NCBI GenBank assembly: GCA_030600625.1
Contig: JAUVLS010000131.1
Coordinates: 1 to 5,189, forward strand
DNA: 5,189 nucleotides
Direction: 5' to 3'
Source: Bacteroidales bacterium
GTDB lineage: Bacteria > Bacteroidota > Bacteroidia > Bacteroidales > UBA12077
Part shown: positions 1-5,189 of the stretch, one piece after another
Position numbering within the stretch: the first letter of the stretch is position 1
Layout of the letters: the number at the start of each line of letters is the position of its first letter
Notes under the pieces: model-generated
The model's input: the letters and a program-made list of their open reading frames with translations, nothing else
Told to the model about the DNA's origin: nothing
Databases searched by the model: none
Program-made: the position numbers and the translations under genes

Positions 1-553
1 CTAATAATAATCCCAGGAATAGTTGAGTAATTATCTTTTTATAAGGCCGTAAATATGAAAACAGGAATTTAAATCCTGATTTATTTAATTTTTCATCATC
101 TGCCTTGTAAAAATCGGGCGTAGTTTCAAGCAATAAACAAAGGCCTTTATCCTCTCCGCCTTCTTTTGTAGATGCCCAACCCGATAAAAACTCCTCTTTG
201 GTAAATTTTATTAATCCACGAGCAGGATCTGAAACATGCACAAATATTTTCCCATTACGCTGTTTATTAATTTTATAAACAACCACAAAATGATTCTGTT
301 TCCAATGTGCAACACATGGCAAAGGTGTTTCGTTTAATAATTGCTCAAACGTAATTCGCACACCCATACTCCGGAAACCAATTGCTTCAGCAGCATCACT
401 AATCCCAAGCATAGAAACACCTTCGCGGGTTATATAGCTTTTATCTCGTAATGTTTGTAATGAGTAATTTTTGCCATAATGTTTTGCGATCATCCTTAAA
501 CAGGTAGGACCGCAATCCATAGCATCGAGTTGTTTATAGTGTGGGAAAGACAT
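1..553 (-). CDS. C39-peptidase ABC exporter for double-glycine peptides, 5' part (runs off left edge)
   Basis: This is the first 184 residues of a peptidase-containing ABC transporter (the SunT/LagD type, family C39), which cuts double-glycine leaders in the cytoplasm and exports the released peptide. The protein opens MSFPHYKQLDAMDCGPTC. The catalytic Cys is C14, with the oxyanion Gln at Q8, the catalytic His at H88 (in NHFVVVYK) and the Asp at D109 (in SDPARG). All are present, so the peptidase looks active. From about residue 163 the sequence becomes FSYLRPYKKIITQLFLGLL, the entry to the first membrane helix of the ABC membrane domain; the rest and the ATPase lie outside the window. The start at 553 is chosen because C39 domains normally begin about ten residues before the DCG motif. 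No strong ribosome site is visible. It lies on the same strand as the GG-leader peptide at 2881-3036, a probable substrate (inference from proximity). Confidence 0.93.
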   Translation of the reverse strand, partial: MSFPHYKQLDAMDCGPTCLRMIAKHYGKNYSLQTLRDKSYITREGVSMLGISDAAEAIGFRSMGVRITFEQLLNETPLPCVAHWKQNHFVVVYKINKQRNGKIFVHVSDPARGLIKFTKEEFLSGWASTKEGGEDKGLCLLLETTPDFYKADDEKLNKSGFKFLFSYLRPYKKIITQLFLGLLL

Positions 554-653
554 ACTTGCAATCATCTTTGTAGTTATTAATAAAAGAGCCACAATCCCTG
601 CCTATTCGGCAGGCAGGCATAGCATCGAGTTGTTTGTAAAAAGGGAAAGGCAT
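534..653 (-). pseudogene. Vestigial duplicate of the C39 transporter 5' end
   Basis: A 39-codon reading frame starts at 653 with MPFPFYKQLDAM, nearly the same as the first 12 residues of the transporter that starts 100 bp further on (MSFPHYKQLDAM); 30 of the first 36 bases match. A 21-bp palindromic insert follows, then GATTGTGGC, the DCG of the active site, after which similarity ends. The frame closes at 534, 20 bases inside the real transporter gene and in a different frame. The simplest reading is a remnant of a tandem or duplicated transporter gene, later deleted and interrupted. A role as a leader reading frame, with its stop overlapping the transporter start, cannot be excluded. The open frame extends upstream to 728 only by reading through the terminator hairpin, so the start at 653 is preferred. 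Confidence 0.75.
597..617 (-). repeat. 21-bp palindromic insert in the vestigial C39 start
   Basis: Read on the minus strand, the insert begins CCTG and then forms a perfect hairpin, CCTGCC - GAATA - GGCAGG. It sits exactly between the Met12 codon (ATG) and the Asp-Cys-Gly codons of the duplicated transporter start, where the intact copy has no extra bases. It is much richer in G+C than its surroundings. Short palindromes of this GGCAGG kind are, from general familiarity, dispersed in some Bacteroidota genomes; that this one is a mobile REP-like unit is inference. Confidence 0.6.
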
Positions 654-704
654 TTTTTGTTTAAAGATAACTATTCTAAAAATTAACAAAAACTTTTTTG
701 TATT

Positions 705-748
705 ATATAAAACAGAAACCATCTCCAAATATTAACATTCGGAGATGG
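705..748 (-). terminator. Probable rho-independent terminator of the TPR/kinase-like/LytTR operon
   Basis: A perfect 8-bp stem (CCATCTCC at 748-741 on the minus strand pairing with GGAGATGG at 726-719) encloses a 14-base loop and is followed on the minus strand by TTTCTGTTTTAT. It lies about 40 bases after the LytTR stop codon and before the transporter. The stem is moderately GC-rich and the T-run is interrupted once, so termination may be partial, allowing some read-through to the transporter. There is no T-run on the plus-strand side. Confidence 0.65.
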
Positions 749-769
749 TATCACTGGGGTTAATAACAA

Positions 770-777
770 CAAACCTA
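770..777 (-). promoter_or_regulatory. Candidate Bacteroidota -7 element (TAGGTTTG)
   Basis: The minus strand reads TAGGTTTG, a full match to the Bacteroidota -7 consensus TAnnTTTG, just after the LytTR stop. No convincing -33 TTG is seen at the usual distance. A transcript starting here would run through the 748-719 hairpin before reaching the transporter at 553, so the hairpin would act as a leader terminator or attenuator. One short match can easily arise by chance. Confidence 0.25.
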
Positions 778-787
778 ACTTGATAAT

Positions 788-1141
788 TTATACTAACTCT
801 TGAAGATCATACACCTGTTTTAAACTTTCAAATAACTCGTCTTTTTTGTTATAATTTACAAATATTTCTTTACCGTTTTCTAACACTACTTTAGAGGCTT
901 CTGAAGGAAATACTACCTCAACATGACGAAGATTTACCAGGTATTTATTATTAAACCTGAAAAATCCCTGATCGAATAATAAATGCTCTGTTTCATTTAT
1001 GGTTAATAACAACTCGATTTTTTCGTTATTAATTAGTGTAAGCCTTGAACACTGAAGACTTGTTTCAATATAGAGTATCTGACTACAATCTATTTTCATT
1101 TTACCTTTTTCTGTAGGTATATAAATGTTATAAGTACTCAT
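788..1141 (-). CDS. Stand-alone LytTR-family DNA-binding regulator
   Basis: This 117-residue protein is essentially one LytTR domain, the fold that binds DNA direct repeats in AgrA- and ComE-type regulators. Visible family signatures are the N-terminal strand NIYIPTEKGKMKI, the segment ILYIETSLQCSRLTL (usually ILYIEA..), FFRFNNKYLVNLRHVE (usually F.RIHRSYIVNL..I) and VVLENGKEIFVNYNKKDELFESL at the end. There is no receiver domain, no membrane segment and no room for one, so it has no phospho-acceptor Asp of its own. It starts with ATG only 11 bases after the kinase-like gene stops and is the last gene of the three-gene operon; a probable terminator follows. LytTR regulators often control peptide-signal or bacteriocin operons, so the nearby GG-leader peptide and exporter are plausible targets (inference). 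Confidence 0.9.
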   Translation of the reverse strand: MSTYNIYIPTEKGKMKIDCSQILYIETSLQCSRLTLINNEKIELLLTINETEHLLFDQGFFRFNNKYLVNLRHVEVVFPSEASKVVLENGKEIFVNYNKKDELFESLKQVYDLQELV

Positions 1142-1152
1142 AATTTATTAAT

Positions 1153-1926
1153 TTAAATTATATTAAATCCTTTATTTCTTTCATATTTTATTGGAATAGC
1201 AAAAGAGGATTCCTGGGTTTCAGAATCCATAGTCAGCTCACCTCCCAGCATTGATACTGAACCAGATAGAACTTTGTAATTAAAATAATCGAAAGAATTA
1301 TCCTCGTCAATTGAATACGACTGATGTTCGGTTAAAAGATCATCAGCAGATAATTTTTCCTTTGCAGGACGAACAAATATATTCAAGTATTTATTCTCGG
1401 TTATACGATAACCCAATTCAAATTCTACAACAGGATATTTTACAGATACCAGGTTAATAATTCTTCGCAAAGCTTTTTTTAGTAACATTGAATCTGTTTC
1501 AATTTTCAAATCATTTACCTTGGTATCCCACACAAGCATCAAATTAATATCGGTATCATTATTTTCAATTTTTCGGTTGTAAAAATCCTCAGTAAATTCC
1601 CATAAAATCTGATTTATATCGTATTTCCTTATTATTAACGAATAGTTGTTTGCCTCAAACTGGGATAAATCCATAATATTATCTACAAACTGTAGTAATA
1701 AATTACTTCCGTTTAAAATACCCTGAATATATTCTTTTTGCTTTTCGTCAATTAACTCCCTTAAAACCAGTAATTTCGAAAAACCCATGATTGAGTTTAA
1801 CGGAGTTCGTATACCATGCGAGATATGAGATAAAAAACTGATTTTTTCAGAATTATATTTTTTCTTGTTTTCTCTCACGATCTTGCCGTTTATGGTTTTT
1901 ACATTGTTTTTCATAGAATCTCGCAT
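1153..1926 (-). CDS. Soluble histidine-kinase-like protein with degenerate ATPase domain (probable pseudokinase)
   Basis: A 257-residue protein without signal peptide or membrane segment. A basic, probably helical N-terminus (1-28) leads into a HisKA dimerisation segment, with FLSHISHGIRTPLNSIMGF at 31-49. The phospho-acceptor would be H37, but the acidic residue that normally follows it is G38. The C-terminal half follows the HATPase order, with the last-strand region MLGGELTMDSE at 226-236 and SSFAIPI near the end. The nucleotide-binding boxes are not recognisable: the N-box Asn is missing around 158-164 (NLVSVKY), the G1 box reads VRPAKEKLSADDL where DxGxG is expected, and the G2 glycines are replaced by FDYFNYKV around 212-219. 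ATP binding and autophosphorylation look unlikely. A scaffold or contact-relay role between the upstream membrane TPR protein (13-base gap) and the downstream LytTR protein (11-base gap) is inferred. GAGAG seven bases before the ATG supports the start. Confidence 0.85.
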   Translation of the reverse strand: MRDSMKNNVKTINGKIVRENKKKYNSEKISFLSHISHGIRTPLNSIMGFSKLLVLRELIDEKQKEYIQGILNGSNLLLQFVDNIMDLSQFEANNYSLIIRKYDINQILWEFTEDFYNRKIENNDTDINLMLVWDTKVNDLKIETDSMLLKKALRRIINLVSVKYPVVEFELGYRITENKYLNIFVRPAKEKLSADDLLTEHQSYSIDEDNSFDYFNYKVLSGSVSMLGGELTMDSETQESSFAIPIKYERNKGFNII

Positions 1927-1939
1927 GAATTTCTCTCAG

Positions 1940-2689
1940 TTAATTTTTGATATCTTTTAATACTTTAGCTGCCTGTTCCCTGTAATAACTTTCCTCTTTT
2001 ATTATTTCATTTAATACATTTTTGGCCTTAACGGTATTTTCAGTTTTTAAATAACACATTGCCAAATACCATTTAGCTTGCTCAATAAACAAGTTATCGT
2101 TATGGGAAATAATATTGTTAAATGATTTTGTGGCTTTCTGGTATTTTTCTTCTTCTATGTATGAAATACCGGAATATAAGCTAACAGCCAGATCATTCTC
2201 CCTGGTTTCTAAAACTTCCTCAAAAAGTATCAATGCATGCTCAAAATCTTTTTCTTCGTAGCGTTCGAGTGCATTTAACAATAATCTATCTACTTCGGCA
2301 TTTCCGGAACGATATGTAACGGAGACATCATAAGGAGCATAATACTTTTCAAAAACTGCATTATTATCCAAATCAGGTCTTGCTAATCTCTGAACTAAGC
2401 CTCCCGTTGCAATTAATAAAGCAGCTGAAGCTGCAGCATAATAGAATCTGCGCTTAGTAAATACCGGAGGTATTCTTTTTGCCTCAGATTCTTCCGCATA
2501 CATGTAGTCCATAGTTTCTCTCAGCGCCATTACATCATCTTCGATGATTGAGTTATTGATTTCCATACTCAGGTTATAATCGCGCTTTATATCGTTGTTA
2601 GTTGAAAGTAAGTCTTTAAAATTGAATAATTCCTTTCCTGTCAATTCTCCATCGATATATTTTTCAATCATTTCAAAGTTTGTATCCAT
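1940..2689 (-). CDS. Membrane-anchored TPR protein with anti-sigma-like N-terminus
   Basis: From ATG at 2689 this gives 249 residues. The N-terminus (MIEKYIDGELTGKELFNF, then an acidic helical stretch) resembles the cytoplasmic head of Bacteroidota anti-sigma-like or FecR-like membrane proteins (IEKY..GEL...E). A basic patch (TKRR) precedes a single membrane helix at about 83-100 (YYAAASAALLIATGGLV), so the head should be cytoplasmic and the rest periplasmic. The C-terminal part, about 130-249, is helical TPR-like repeats, including YEEKDFEHALILFEEVL, YIEEEKYQKATKSFNNII and WYLAMCYLKTENTVKAKNVL. An in-frame TTG at 2704 would add five residues; AAGGA lies seven bases before it, so that start is a real alternative. 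First gene of the operon with the kinase-like and LytTR genes. A likely role is to sense something in the periplasm and pass it to the soluble kinase-like protein (inference). Confidence 0.85.
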   Translation of the reverse strand: MDTNFEMIEKYIDGELTGKELFNFKDLLSTNNDIKRDYNLSMEINNSIIEDDVMALRETMDYMYAEESEAKRIPPVFTKRRFYYAAASAALLIATGGLVQRLARPDLDNNAVFEKYYAPYDVSVTYRSGNAEVDRLLLNALERYEEKDFEHALILFEEVLETRENDLAVSLYSGISYIEEEKYQKATKSFNNIISHNDNLFIEQAKWYLAMCYLKTENTVKAKNVLNEIIKEESYYREQAAKVLKDIKN

Positions 2690-2719
2690 AATTTCTAGTT
2701 TCAAGTTTAATTCCTTATT

Positions 2720-2749
2720 GTCTCATTTGAGACGTAATGCATTGCGTCT
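2720..2749 (-). promoter_or_regulatory. Two overlapping palindromes upstream of the TPR operon
   Basis: A perfect 14-bp palindrome (GTCTCA - TT - TGAGAC, 2720-2733) overlaps by four bases a 20-bp palindrome (2730-2749, arms AGACG and CGTCT around AATGCATT with one mismatched pair). In RNA the two hairpins would exclude each other, since both need the shared AGAC. They lie just upstream of AAGGA and the two candidate starts of the TPR gene, so a regulatory role (operator or RNA switch) is possible. A chance or remnant origin is also possible. Confidence 0.4.
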
Positions 2750-2769
2750 TTGCCATATCCATTGAACTC

Positions 2770-2785
2770 TCCACCAGTTGGCGGA
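2770..2785. repeat. 16-bp near-palindrome TCCACCAGTTGGCGGA
   Basis: The arms TCCACCA and TGGCGGA pair at six of seven positions. It is a GC-rich island in AT-rich intergenic DNA, similar in style though not in sequence to the 21-bp palindrome at 597-617. It may be a small dispersed palindromic repeat; no function can be read from it. Confidence 0.35.
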
Positions 2786-2840
2786 TCGGTTTAAGTTTTG
2801 TTAGAAAAGACCAACCCAACATTATATTGAGTCGGCCAAC

Positions 2841-2853
2841 ACGTTAAGAACGT
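2841..2853. repeat. Small inverted repeat ACGTT-AAG-AACGT after the peptide gene
   Basis: Perfect 5-bp arms with a 3-base spacer, nested inside a wider ATTATA (2821-2826) / TATAAT (2853-2858) pair, 28 bases beyond the peptide stop codon on the minus strand. There is no T-run after it, so it is not a standard terminator. It might protect the short peptide transcript at its 3' end, or be an operator; evidence is weak. Confidence 0.25.
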
Positions 2854-2880
2854 ATAATTGAATCGAAAGGGAGTGCTTTA

Positions 2881-3036
2881 TTAGTTTCCTCCGTTTGTTG
2901 ATGGTGGCCATAAATCATCATCATCTTCACCACCACCTTTTATCATTATCATTGCATTTGTATCAAGACTGTTAAAAAAATTGTTCATTGATTTTTTAGT
3001 TTCTTCAATTCCAAAAATGTTTTTTAATGTTTTCAT
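2881..3036 (-). CDS. Double-glycine leader precursor peptide (51 aa), putative substrate of the C39 exporter
   Basis: The small protein starts MKTLKNIFGIEETKKS, continues MNNFFNSLDTNAMIMIKGG and ends GEDDDDLWPPSTNGGN. Taking G34-G35 as the cleavage site, positions -4 (I32), -7 (M29), -12 (L24) and -15 (F21) are all hydrophobic, which is the pattern C39 peptidases read in bacteriocin and pheromone leaders. Cutting after G35 releases a 16-residue peptide with five acidic residues, no Lys or Arg, no Cys, one Trp and a Pro-Pro. The layout also resembles Bacteroidota natural-product precursors with leaders ending in a Gly-Gly. AAGGA lies three bases before the ATG, and the stop is doubled (TAATAA). 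A C39 exporter lies on the same strand about 2.3 kb downstream, and no modification enzyme is visible in the window. Whether the product is a signal, a toxin or something else cannot be told from sequence. Too short for most gene finders. Confidence 0.85.
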   Translation of the reverse strand: MKTLKNIFGIEETKKSMNNFFNSLDTNAMIMIKGGGEDDDDLWPPSTNGGN

Positions 3037-3074
3037 AGTTCCTTTTTTAAAAAAATTATTTAATGATTTAGTTT

Positions 3075-3128
3075 AATGTCCTCTCACCTATTTATTCCGG
3101 AAATTGCAAAAATGTTATCACCTATTTT
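3075..3128 (-). promoter_or_regulatory. Imperfect direct repeat upstream of the precursor peptide gene
   Basis: On the plus strand, TCACCTATTT occurs at 3084-3093 and again at 3118-3127. Each copy is preceded by AATGT (3075-3079 and 3111-3115), with a 2-base length difference between the halves. The repeat spacing is 34-36 bp, about three helical turns plus. LytTR proteins bind direct repeats, so this is a candidate site for the LytTR protein encoded nearby, although the usual LytTR spacing is shorter (about 21-22 bp). A -7-like CATTTTTG overlaps the distal copy. Confidence 0.4.
3107..3114 (-). promoter_or_regulatory. Candidate -7 element of the precursor peptide gene (CATTTTTG)
   Basis: The minus strand reads CATTTTTG, seven of eight positions being compatible with TAnnTTTG, about 70 bases before the peptide ATG. 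A TTG further upstream is too close for the usual -33 spacing. It is the best match in this intergenic region for this direction, but weak. Confidence 0.25.
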
Positions 3129-3250
3129 CAACTTTTTTTATTTTACTTAGATAAGCAACTGATTTACTGGCGATTATTTTTTACATTTTTTAAAACTTTT
3201 TTCAATTTTTTTAGTATATATTAATGAAATCTCTAAAAACTCAAAAAATA

Positions 3251-3378
3251 ATTAACCACAAAAGACACAAAGAAAGCACAAAGCTCACAATGTTCTGATT
3301 TAAAAGTCTTTGTGTTTATTATGAACTAAGCGAAGCGATCTCACGGAAGGTAAATTACTTTTGTTCATCGTGGTTTAT
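3251..3378. repeat. 128-bp imperfect inverted-repeat element (MITE/REP-like)
   Basis: The ends ATTAACCAC (3251-3259) and GTGGTTTAT (3370-3378) are inverted copies with one mismatch. Inside are two further inverted pairs: CACAAAG (3278-3284 region) with CTTTGTG (3308-3314), and ATGAAC (3321-3326) with GTTCAT (3363-3368). The left arm also contains ACACAAAG and GCACAAAG as direct repeats. AACCACAAA...CACAAAG ends are familiar from dispersed intergenic repeats in Bacteroidota genomes; that it is a non-autonomous mobile element is inference. It encodes no protein. It lies between the divergent peptide and TPR-CHAT genes. Confidence 0.6.
3356..3363 (+). promoter_or_regulatory. Candidate -7 element of the TPR-CHAT gene (TACTTTTG), inside the repeat element
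   Basis: TACTTTTG is a full match to TAnnTTTG on the coding strand, 60 bases before the TPR-CHAT start codon, giving a plausible leader of about 50 bases. No clear -33 TTG is found at the expected distance. If real, the repeat element at 3251-3378 supplies the promoter of this gene. Confidence 0.35.
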
Positions 3379-3423
3379 AAAAAATAATTTTTAGAAATGC
3401 CCTTAAGTACAAACTAAGAAATA

Positions 3424-5189
3424 ATGTATTTTAAAAATTTACTTTTCGTATTATTCCTGTTTATTTCGGTAAATGTGCAAGCTGTTAATCAATCCCCCGA
3501 CAGTCTTGAAAACATTAAAATACTTGAAAAAGCAGAATTATTCTATAACAAGGGATTGGACTTTGGAAGAATTGGGAAACTGGATAGCGCCTTATACTAT
3601 ACTCAAAATGCTGTTAATTTATATGAAAATGCAGCCATAATTAACAGTACTCTGTTAGCATATTCATATCAAAGCCTTGGAATTATAAATAAATTACTGG
3701 GGAAATTTGATGATGCTATTAATTGTTATAATAAAGCCGAAGAAATATATAAATTAAATTCTAACTTGTCGTTACTAGCCTATGTTTATGGAAATAAAGC
3801 CAATATCTTTTACATACAGCAAGATTATTCCAAAGCAAAAGATTTCCACTTTAGAGCAATAGATATATTTACTAATGATTCAGTAAAGTATAAAAAACAA
3901 CTAGCATCAAGCTATAATAATTTAGGTAATATTTATAAAAAAAATAATGATTTTGTTTATGCCATTGAATATTATAAAAAAAGTCTGTTACTAAAAGAAA
4001 AAAAGTCTAAATATAATACCCTGGGAAACTTAGCTTATTGTTATGAAAAAATTGCCGCCTTTGATAAGGCTAATAAATACTATTTACAAGCACTTGATAA
4101 TATAGAAAAGAATTATGGAGAAAATTATATCTGGCTTGCATATCAGCAAATGAATTATGGGATTTTCATTTCACATCAATTCAATGATACTAAAACAGCT
4201 TTTAATTATTTTCGTTCATCTCTAAATATCTATAAAGAAAACTTCGGTTTAATCCATCCTAATATATCTAATTGTTATAATAAAATAGGTGAATTCTATT
4301 TAGATAATAACCAAACCGACAGCGCCTTATTCTATTTTCAGAAATCATTAATTGCCTTAACACCTGAATTTAATGATACGAGTACAAGTTCAAATCCTGA
4401 GATTAACGAGGTATCCTCTAAAACACATTTATTAAGTTCATTAAAAAACAAGGCCTATGCTCTGTCAAAACTGGCCTCGCAAAACAAAAATATAAGTAAT
4501 TATAAACTAAGTTTGGCAACTTACGATCGGGCAACAGAAGCCATTAATCTGATCAGGTCGGGGTATTTGAGCGAAGAAAGCAAATTATTTCTGGCCGATA
4601 ATGAGTTTGAAACATTTTCAAATGCTTTACAAACAAGTTACGAGTTATATAAATTAACTAATGAACAAAAATATCTTGAAAAAGCATTTAACTATAGCGA
4701 AGCCGGTAAATCAGCAATTCTTACCGAAGCTTTAAAAAATACTCATGCCTTAAATATTGGTGGTATTCCTGATTCGTTAATCAATAAGGAAAAACAACTT
4801 GAAAAATCTATATGGACATACGAAGAACTGATATATGAAGAAAATAAAAAAAAGAATCCTGATCAAAATAAATTAGAATACTGGCATAAATACCTTTTCG
4901 AAAAAAAACAAGAATTTGATGATCTTGCAATTTATCTTGAAAATAATTTTCAAAAATATCATTCATTAAAACATTTACAGAATACATTAAAGATTGAAGA
5001 CATACAGAAAAAGTTAAGCCGAAAAGATTTACTAATAGAGTATTTCTTAACCGGTAATAAAATTTATACAATTTTAATTGGTAAAAAAGAATCAGATATT
5101 TTTGAACAAAACATAGATCAGTCATTCCATAATCATCTGGATAACTTATTACAATCCTTATCGAATAACAATTTTTCAAATCATGGTTT
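3424..5189 (+). CDS. Secreted TPR-CHAT protein (3' end beyond window)
   Basis: The frame is open from ATG at 3424 to the right edge, 588 codons. A signal peptide is clear: MYFKNLLFVLFLFISVNVQA, with probable cleavage after A20, so the protein is periplasmic or surface-bound. About eight tetratricopeptide repeats follow (approximately 35-72, 77-112, 117-152, 158-192, 197-230, 236-272, 280-313, 336-377), with typical units such as SSYNNLGNIYKKNNDFVYAI. A long helical linker (about 378-525) leads to LLIEYFLTGNKIYTILIG from residue 536, which is the usual opening of a CHAT domain, the caspase-like peptidase family; the catalytic His and Cys would lie beyond the window and cannot be checked. TPR-CHAT proteins are common in Bacteroidota, and some CHAT proteins elsewhere are proteases switched on by partners. 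Divergent from the peptide gene; a link with the peptide or the membrane TPR protein is inference. The ribosome site is weak (AAGAAA). Confidence 0.88.
   Translation, partial: MYFKNLLFVLFLFISVNVQAVNQSPDSLENIKILEKAELFYNKGLDFGRIGKLDSALYYTQNAVNLYENAAIINSTLLAYSYQSLGIINKLLGKFDDAINCYNKAEEIYKLNSNLSLLAYVYGNKANIFYIQQDYSKAKDFHFRAIDIFTNDSVKYKKQLASSYNNLGNIYKKNNDFVYAIEYYKKSLLLKEKKSKYNTLGNLAYCYEKIAAFDKANKYYLQALDNIEKNYGENYIWLAYQQMNYGIFISHQFNDTKTAFNYFRSSLNIYKENFGLIHPNISNCYNKIGEFYLDNNQTDSALFYFQKSLIALTPEFNDTSTSSNPEINEVSSKTHLLSSLKNKAYALSKLASQNKNISNYKLSLATYDRATEAINLIRSGYLSEESKLFLADNEFETFSNALQTSYELYKLTNEQKYLEKAFNYSEAGKSAILTEALKNTHALNIGGIPDSLINKEKQLEKSIWTYEELIYEENKKKNPDQNKLEYWHKYLFEKKQEFDDLAIYLENNFQKYHSLKHLQNTLKIEDIQKKLSRKDLLIEYFLTGNKIYTILIGKKESDIFEQNIDQSFHNHLDNLLQSLSNNNFSNHG

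Follow-up and report, generated by a model that had tools for sequence, protein, structure and literature searches.

Does an apparently empty gap in a Bacteroidales contig hide the gene of a signalling peptide, and if so, which proteins does the peptide act with? The question is raised by a stretch of 5,189 nucleotides (contig JAUVLS010000131.1, positions 1 to 5,189; hereafter the window), for which an initial annotation had proposed a 51-residue double-glycine precursor. Double-glycine peptide pheromones are best known in Gram-positive bacteria. The gap was said to look empty; it does hold the hidden ORF, which begins with ATG and carries no annotation, and in addition a promoter-like block lies 5' and a terminator-like hairpin 3' of it. 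The features of this region are as follows.

2881..3036, minus strand: peptide precursor gene, 51 aa, stop codon included in the coordinates (homologues, alignment, dN/dS)
2932..3036, minus strand: leader, residues 1-35, ending in K33-G34-G35 (hydrophobic -4/-7/-12, invariant KGG)
2884..2931, minus strand: predicted core, 16 residues, acidic, with LWPP motif (W43 and charge; cleavage site predicted)
3084..3103, minus strand: conserved -10-like block of an ECF-like promoter (alignment of 17 intergenic regions)
3108..3123, minus strand: site of the -35-like element, changed in the window (15 of 16 relative loci match the element)
2809..2837, minus strand: terminator-like hairpin 3' of the peptide gene (like hairpin in 6 of 14 relatives)

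Protein search with the window peptide gave 52 candidate proteins, 51 of which qualify as homologues at E<=1 (E 9.9e-26 to 3.5e-8), and the proposed ORF is confirmed. Comparison with 16 relative genes bears on a point that the initial annotation had itself raised, namely that stops or frameshifts in relatives would speak against the peptide. The frame is intact in the relatives and length changes comprise whole codons; dN/dS (Nei-Gojobori) is 0.16-0.59 for 15 genes and 2.22 for one (L003), the latter value resting on just 1.7 synonymous changes. Chance occurrence of the ORF is ruled out by its homologues together with the intact frame and dN/dS. Judged by these comparisons, the ORF is a real gene, mostly under purifying selection. 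The earlier statement that no characterised product with such a core was known also holds: the window peptide matches no family of NCBIfam and Pfam at E<=1, ComC and NCBIfam pheromone profiles included. None of the 51 homologues has a precomputed Pfam domain, and the single match in Phrogs (E 0.12) is at chance level. Viral origin was rejected (0 of 599 candidate stretches of a viral collection encode a relative of the peptide), as were a structured RNA (no Rfam family reaches its gathering score in the window) and a RiPP precursor (no modification enzyme is constant across peptide loci).

Genome scan yielded five peptide loci, all from Bacteroidales MAGs. When the GTDB family of the first of these loci was searched, the peptide was detected in 16 of its 25 genomes (E<=0.01). 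In the order sample, where up to 16 candidates per genome were scored, it was found in 4 of 393 genomes, all four belonging to the same family.

All 51 homologues are short ORFs with a GG-ending leader and hydrophobic residues at -4, -7 and -12, the criterion used here for double-glycine precursors. K33, G34 and G35 are invariant, KGG being present in 51/51; position -4 is I, V or L, position -7 is M or L and position -12 is L in every homologue. The hydrophobic pattern described initially thus stands for these three positions and fails for -15, where the Phe of the window is matched by Ser in 36 and Thr in one of the 51 homologues. The invariant aromatic residue of the leader is F20, at -16, and a hydrophobic -15 is regarded by us as common, not defining, for such precursors. 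The sequences support a conserved precursor with a double-glycine leader. Its predicted core contains a tryptophan motif in acidic surroundings in 51/51 homologues, W43 is invariant in their alignment, and net charge ranges from -14 to -1 (median -5, 51 cores). A weak family match in L034 (E 2.1e-4) has a core without Trp. As an analogy only, the acidic LW core may be likened to W-acidic cargo peptides of kinesin light chain (KLC matches were found).

We asked whether a suitable exporter accompanies the peptide. Its gene is represented in the window by the following feature.

2..553, minus strand: C39 ABC exporter gene, start portion, cut by the window end (PF03412; ORF listed as 2-592, in-frame ATG at 553)

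The C39 domain is recognised with E 1.6e-34, and Cys, His and Asp, presumably the catalytic triad, are readable in its translation. A same-strand C39 exporter, as claimed initially, is present, with only the start of its gene in the window. For the full-length relative in locus L001, the closest solved structure by sequence is 4ry2 (C39 bacteriocin transporter), and ComA is a further match among solved structures. Nine of the 14 peptide loci with a continuing contig have a C39 exporter within the fetched stretch, and a further two have it 25-30 kb off on the same contig. Of 24 family genomes, 22 have C39; the exceptions (G022, G024) likewise lack CHAT (see below), TPR_a and the peptide. The first codons of the exporter gene are partly duplicated at 595-653 (minus strand), immediately ahead of the intact start (553) and beside a small palindromic stretch, and a similar remnant lies in L131 (9201-9320). 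Exporters of L005, L024, L028-L030, L032, L034, L105 and L130 are 88-92% identical to that of L001, although the CHAT proteins compared in such relatives share only 48-68% identity; the exporter gene may have spread or undergone gene conversion. Some of the loci (L004:13347-16655; also L027, L031, L032) encode a VKOR/thioredoxin protein together with Cys-rich double-glycine peptides whose leader is of a second type; these peptides are likely to be further cargo of the C39 exporter.

Further, we examined the region upstream of the peptide gene. In 15 of 16 loci the peptide gene has upstream of it the element GGGT(C/T)ACCTTTT and, about 10 bases on, GGAATA or a variant; peptides of the DGFN type described below have a comparable element 5' of them. 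The window itself has no match to the -35-like part within 3 mismatches. A stricter pattern, applied to 24 genomes, matched at 30 sites spread over 14 of them, and the reversed pattern used as control matched nowhere. The peptide gene accounts for ten of the sites; another stands in the interval from the peptide to TPR_a. The remaining 19 are elsewhere: four of them precede members of a family of 124-141 aa genes, and the genes behind the others include one for a LytTR protein and several lipoprotein-like ones. A dedicated regulon was rejected because of these 19 sites, which argue that the element is an ECF-like promoter shared with other genes; we read it as an ECF sigma promoter. In L206, L211, L216 and L230 the conserved 124-141 aa family under the promoter-like element is followed by a 272-326 aa protein, and in L222 (G003:C175) a LytTR-only gene stands under it, with a C39 gene about 4 kb on, on the same strand and contig. 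As for the hairpin 3' of the peptide gene, 9 of 300 shuffles reach a score of 15, and seven real hairpins score 23-25.

Downstream of the peptide gene, the regulatory operon is composed of these features.

1940..2689, minus strand: TPR_a, short N-terminal helical part, one predicted membrane helix and TPR domain (TPR models, 152 homologues, AlphaFold2)
1153..1926, minus strand: HisKA protein without recognised ATPase domain, probable pseudokinase (HisKA model, motifs, structure matches)
788..1141, minus strand: LytTR DNA-binding protein, 117 aa, without receiver (PF04397 over residues 15-107)
718..749, minus strand: terminator-like hairpin 3' of the LytTR gene

TPR_a is next after the peptide in all 14 loci with continuing contig, and is followed by the HisKA protein and then by one to three LytTR proteins. 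Its AlphaFold2 model has pLDDT 72, with residues 48-104 mostly poor. Structural search gave no match at E<=0.001 and generic TPR proteins below that level, and it did not show an anti-sigma fold for the N-terminal part. The SHGIRTP motif is kept in 13 of 14 HisKA proteins. No ATP motifs were seen in the 14, no HATPase family matched that of the window, and solved kinase structures align to residues 13-123, the first half only, so that the protein is a probable pseudokinase. Since the HATPase domain is intact in its counterpart from L182, a locus outside the family, loss of the ATPase in the window-type kinase is probably secondary. The kinase-like gene of L003 is in two ORFs. The initial annotation had placed the peptide directly before a regulatory operon with a LytTR protein, a regulator class it called typical of peptide signalling. 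A LytTR gene is indeed nearby; it has no receiver, however, and its kinase neighbour apparently lacks the ATP-binding part, which argues against a standard two-component pheromone system.

The most constant neighbour of the peptide, overlooked in the initial annotation together with the sigma/TPR pair beyond it, lies on the opposite strand.

3424..5187, plus strand: TPR-CHAT gene, first 588 codons, signal-like segment and TPR superhelix, CHAT domain beyond the window (TPR models, L001 relative, structure model)

This gene is located divergently upstream of the peptide in 16/16 peptide loci, and its full-length relative in L001 carries a CHAT domain (E 2.1e-53). The HxAxH motif is present in 15/15 full-length relatives; the LSSCN Cys motif was located in nine of them, the pattern hitting an earlier place in the rest, and is readable in L001 and L005. 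Hydropathy, the only basis here, predicts a signal-like start above the 1.5 cut-off in 11/15 and a C-terminal hydrophobic anchor in 15/15 of these family relatives. The TPR model of the CHAT protein resembles peptide receptors with high Z, but the fold is generic. The gene beyond CHAT, arranged tail to tail with it, encodes a further TPR protein (31% identity to TPR_a); in L001 its 5' end and the 3' end of the preceding gene, for a sigma-70 region 2 protein, overlap by 4 bp. In L033 this pair is absent from the locus and is found on another contig of the same genome (L113).

We wondered if peptide and CHAT genes are specifically paired. Family CHAT genes with C-terminal anchor (cut-off 1.6 in this count, 1.5 in the above survey) have a divergent double-glycine peptide in 19/19 cases, those without anchor in 0/17 (Fisher 1.2e-10), and after exclusion of loci found through the peptide the ratio is 6/6 versus 0/17 (Fisher 9.9e-6), related genes in both tests not being independent. 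The L111 peptide (VIGG) was added to the count by hand, a spurious L097 ORF was excluded, and one of the 17 anchorless genes (L027) comes from a region retrieved on account of its peptide. L110, L114 and L036 contain peptides, with upstream DNA too short for pairing counts. A divergent K/R-GG ORF accompanies 16 of 23 CHAT genes having a convergent TPR gene (12 of the 16 were found through the peptide), 6 of 72 CHAT genes without one and 3 of 203 other genes, L002 being excluded as covered by L035. Peptide type tracks CHAT type: besides WPP peptides there are DGFN (L097, L098, L100) and DFD/EID peptides (L108-L111, L114, L115, L036). The anchored pairing and this correspondence of types argue for CHAT as partner of the peptide.

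Database homologues of the DFD profile number 68, with F/I/L-Asp at the C-terminus of 50, and the CHAT-linked peptide of L109 passes the Pfam ComC cut-off (24.0 versus 20.4). EEVD sequences are ligands of TPR clamps, to which the DFD/EID C-termini may be likened as an analogy only. Some DFD relatives are named ComC/BlpC-like, 'pheromone/bacteriocin' or 'bacteriocin' in source databases; these latter names, the double-glycine leader and the C39 exporter would suit a bacteriocin-like exported peptide. Such a role is very unlikely, as the cores are short and acidic throughout and synteny is fixed across the family; nor was an immunity gene recognised in the loci inspected.

DFD peptides also bear on the possibility that the peptide is a pheromone whose sensing pathway consists of TPR_a, the kinase-like protein and LytTR and would control the Cys-rich double-glycine cargo of the exporter, CHAT being only a neighbour. 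The invariable position of TPR_a and the occurrence of cargo-like peptides between LytTR and exporter (L004, L032) or near LytTR (L027, L031) are consistent with it. Against it, DFD peptides pair with CHAT and one TPR gene, no LytTR or kinase being recognised beside them, and the kinase of the window looks inactive from its sequence. We consider this explanation improbable.

We wondered if small peptides accompany CHAT genes outside the family as well. Sixty CHAT regions (40 from a phylum sample, 20 from an order sample) were hand-picked among the matches listed, without regard to peptides. A divergent mini-ORF with at least 55% D/E/G/P in its last 20 residues was found for 21 of 61 CHAT genes and for none of 198 other genes in these regions (21/61 versus 1/198 at cut-off 0.5), the p-value of this count being optimistic because the rule was set after the mini-ORFs had been seen. 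By reading, 19 of the 21, all from the phylum sample, have no double-glycine leader, and two are double-glycine types. Leaderless Gly/Pro/Asp-rich mini-ORFs divergent from CHAT are found in L153, L154, L157, L159, L161, L164, L166, L170, L174, L175, L179-L181 and others. Double-glycine peptides beside CHAT were detected in L182, L184, L191 (weak), L197 and L200, all of the order sample; CHAT is anchored in the four measured loci and, by eye, in L197. L182 repeats the order peptide-TPR-kinase of the window, with a TPR protein 35% identical; the same order occurs in L184, its kinase judged by resemblance only; in L200 a C39 exporter lies directly 3' of the peptide. Among 20 loci chosen by their TPR protein, L267 has peptide, TPR and kinase, L283 has two peptides followed by a C39 exporter, and 13 have a sigma gene immediately 5' of the TPR gene. 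No peptide was found in the other 18, several having no DNA where it would lie, nor beside nine anchored CHAT genes outside the family.

Another possibility is that the peptide serves the CHAT protease of its own cell as substrate, inhibitor or activator and is exported only into the periplasm, without cell-cell signalling. CHAT pairing is the most constant feature of the loci, several tandem peptide copies occur, and mini-ORFs, mostly leaderless, stand beside other CHAT genes. The regulatory neighbours, the promoter element and a T1SS-like exporter with HlyD rather suggest passage beyond the periplasm, and we regard this explanation as rather unlikely. A broader, doubtful proposal is a signalling principle of Bacteroidota not described before, in which TPR-CHAT proteases anchored in the membrane and facing outwards would have as ligands small acidic peptides with widely differing, unrelated sequences, and would relay the signal by cutting a TPR anti-sigma protein; the window would represent the double-glycine, C39-exported version, and the leaderless mini-ORFs beside other CHAT genes of the phylum further versions.

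The explanation we favour, held with somewhat less than even confidence, is that the peptide is exported as a signal and sensed outside the cytoplasm by the TPR-CHAT protease, which would feed sigma/anti-sigma-like and LytTR regulators. Comparison indicates that the conserved small gene, preceded in relatives by the ECF-like promoter element, encodes the KGG-leader precursor. As leader and synteny suggest, the C39 ABC exporter and an HlyD partner would cut it after G35 and export the acidic core. Outside the cytoplasm the core may be bound by TPR domains, foremost that of the membrane-anchored CHAT protease, TPR_a and its sigma-linked paralogue being possible further binders. Binding would alter CHAT proteolysis of the TPR anti-sigma-like protein and hence ECF sigma activity, by analogy with Csx29, Csx30 and CASP-sigma; TPR_a, pseudokinase and LytTR could, also by analogy, form a second output, and ECF-type transcription would feed back onto the peptide gene.

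This signalling circuit is suggested by the conserved coding gene, its leader and exporter, and the divergent CHAT gene of all 16 loci. It is also suggested by the gene order repeated in L182 and L267, C39 beside the peptide in L200 and L283, and the joint absence of components from G022 and G024. Further arguments are the sigma gene before TPR in 13/20 loci, the CHAT TPR model, the Csx29 precedent and the 30 promoter sites versus none. On the other hand, no peptide was found beside nine anchored CHAT genes from outside the family or in most loci chosen by TPR, and one CHAT gene of L116, scoring 1.54, becomes an anchored gene without peptide at cut-off 1.5. The anti-sigma role of the TPR proteins is suggested by neighbourhood and a below-cut-off zf-HC2 match in two relatives; TPR similarity is generic, and for TPR_a the structural search found nothing at E<=0.001. 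DGFN and DFD loci have no adjacent exporter, and the promoter element, its -35-like half changed in the window, serves other genes as well (19/30 sites). The interpretation of the initial annotation is partly supported.

A conserved peptide that appears made for trimming and export, with relatives that neighbour an anchored CHAT protease and regulators, suggests a kind of peptide signalling not yet described in bacteria. In the accessible literature, which excludes most subscription papers and all preprints, we found no description of CHAT-small peptide pairing and no account explaining exported TPR-CHAT proteases of Bacteroidota; CHAT is unmentioned in the accessible part of PMC3501461. If the pairing is functional, caspase-like CHAT proteases gain candidate ligands, the role of these proteases becomes directly testable, and a rule emerges for finding signal peptides missed by gene callers, namely to look divergently upstream of anchored CHAT genes.

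Among known systems, ComC/BlpC systems consist of a double-glycine peptide, a C39 exporter, a membrane histidine kinase with ATPase and a receiver-LytTR regulator. The window locus shares with them the GG-leader precursor, C39 ABC exporter, LytTR protein and kinase-like protein. It differs in that LytTR has no receiver and the kinase-like protein no recognised ATPase or sensor domain, and loci of this type add the divergent TPR-CHAT protease and the sigma/TPR pair. Unlike class II bacteriocins, the cores are not cationic (net charge -14 to -1, 51/51). RRNPP receptors (Rap, NprR) are among the closest known systems; the high Z of the CHAT TPR model is reached in a generic fold, and the signal-like start and anchor predicted from hydropathy speak against a cytosolic location such as RRNPP receptors have. 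The comparison with RseA/DegS is drawn in the accessible part of PMC10028731: as in RseA/DegS-type anti-sigma systems, a predicted membrane protein is paired with a sigma gene (4-bp overlap, L001), whereas the TPR domain is outside, the protease is caspase-like rather than DegS-like, and cleavage is a prediction. The precedent described in the same part of that paper is TPR-CHAT Csx29 with Csx30 and CASP-sigma (Craspase/CASP, type III-E CRISPR). Here, too, genes for a sigma factor and a putative anti-sigma protein accompany that of a TPR-CHAT protease, and catalytic His and Cys motifs are found in full-length relatives of the window gene; no CRISPR genes, Cas7-11 effector included, were noticed in the ORF lists of the loci. 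In contrast to Craspase, the CHAT protein has a signal-like start, a predicted membrane anchor and a peptide gene alongside.
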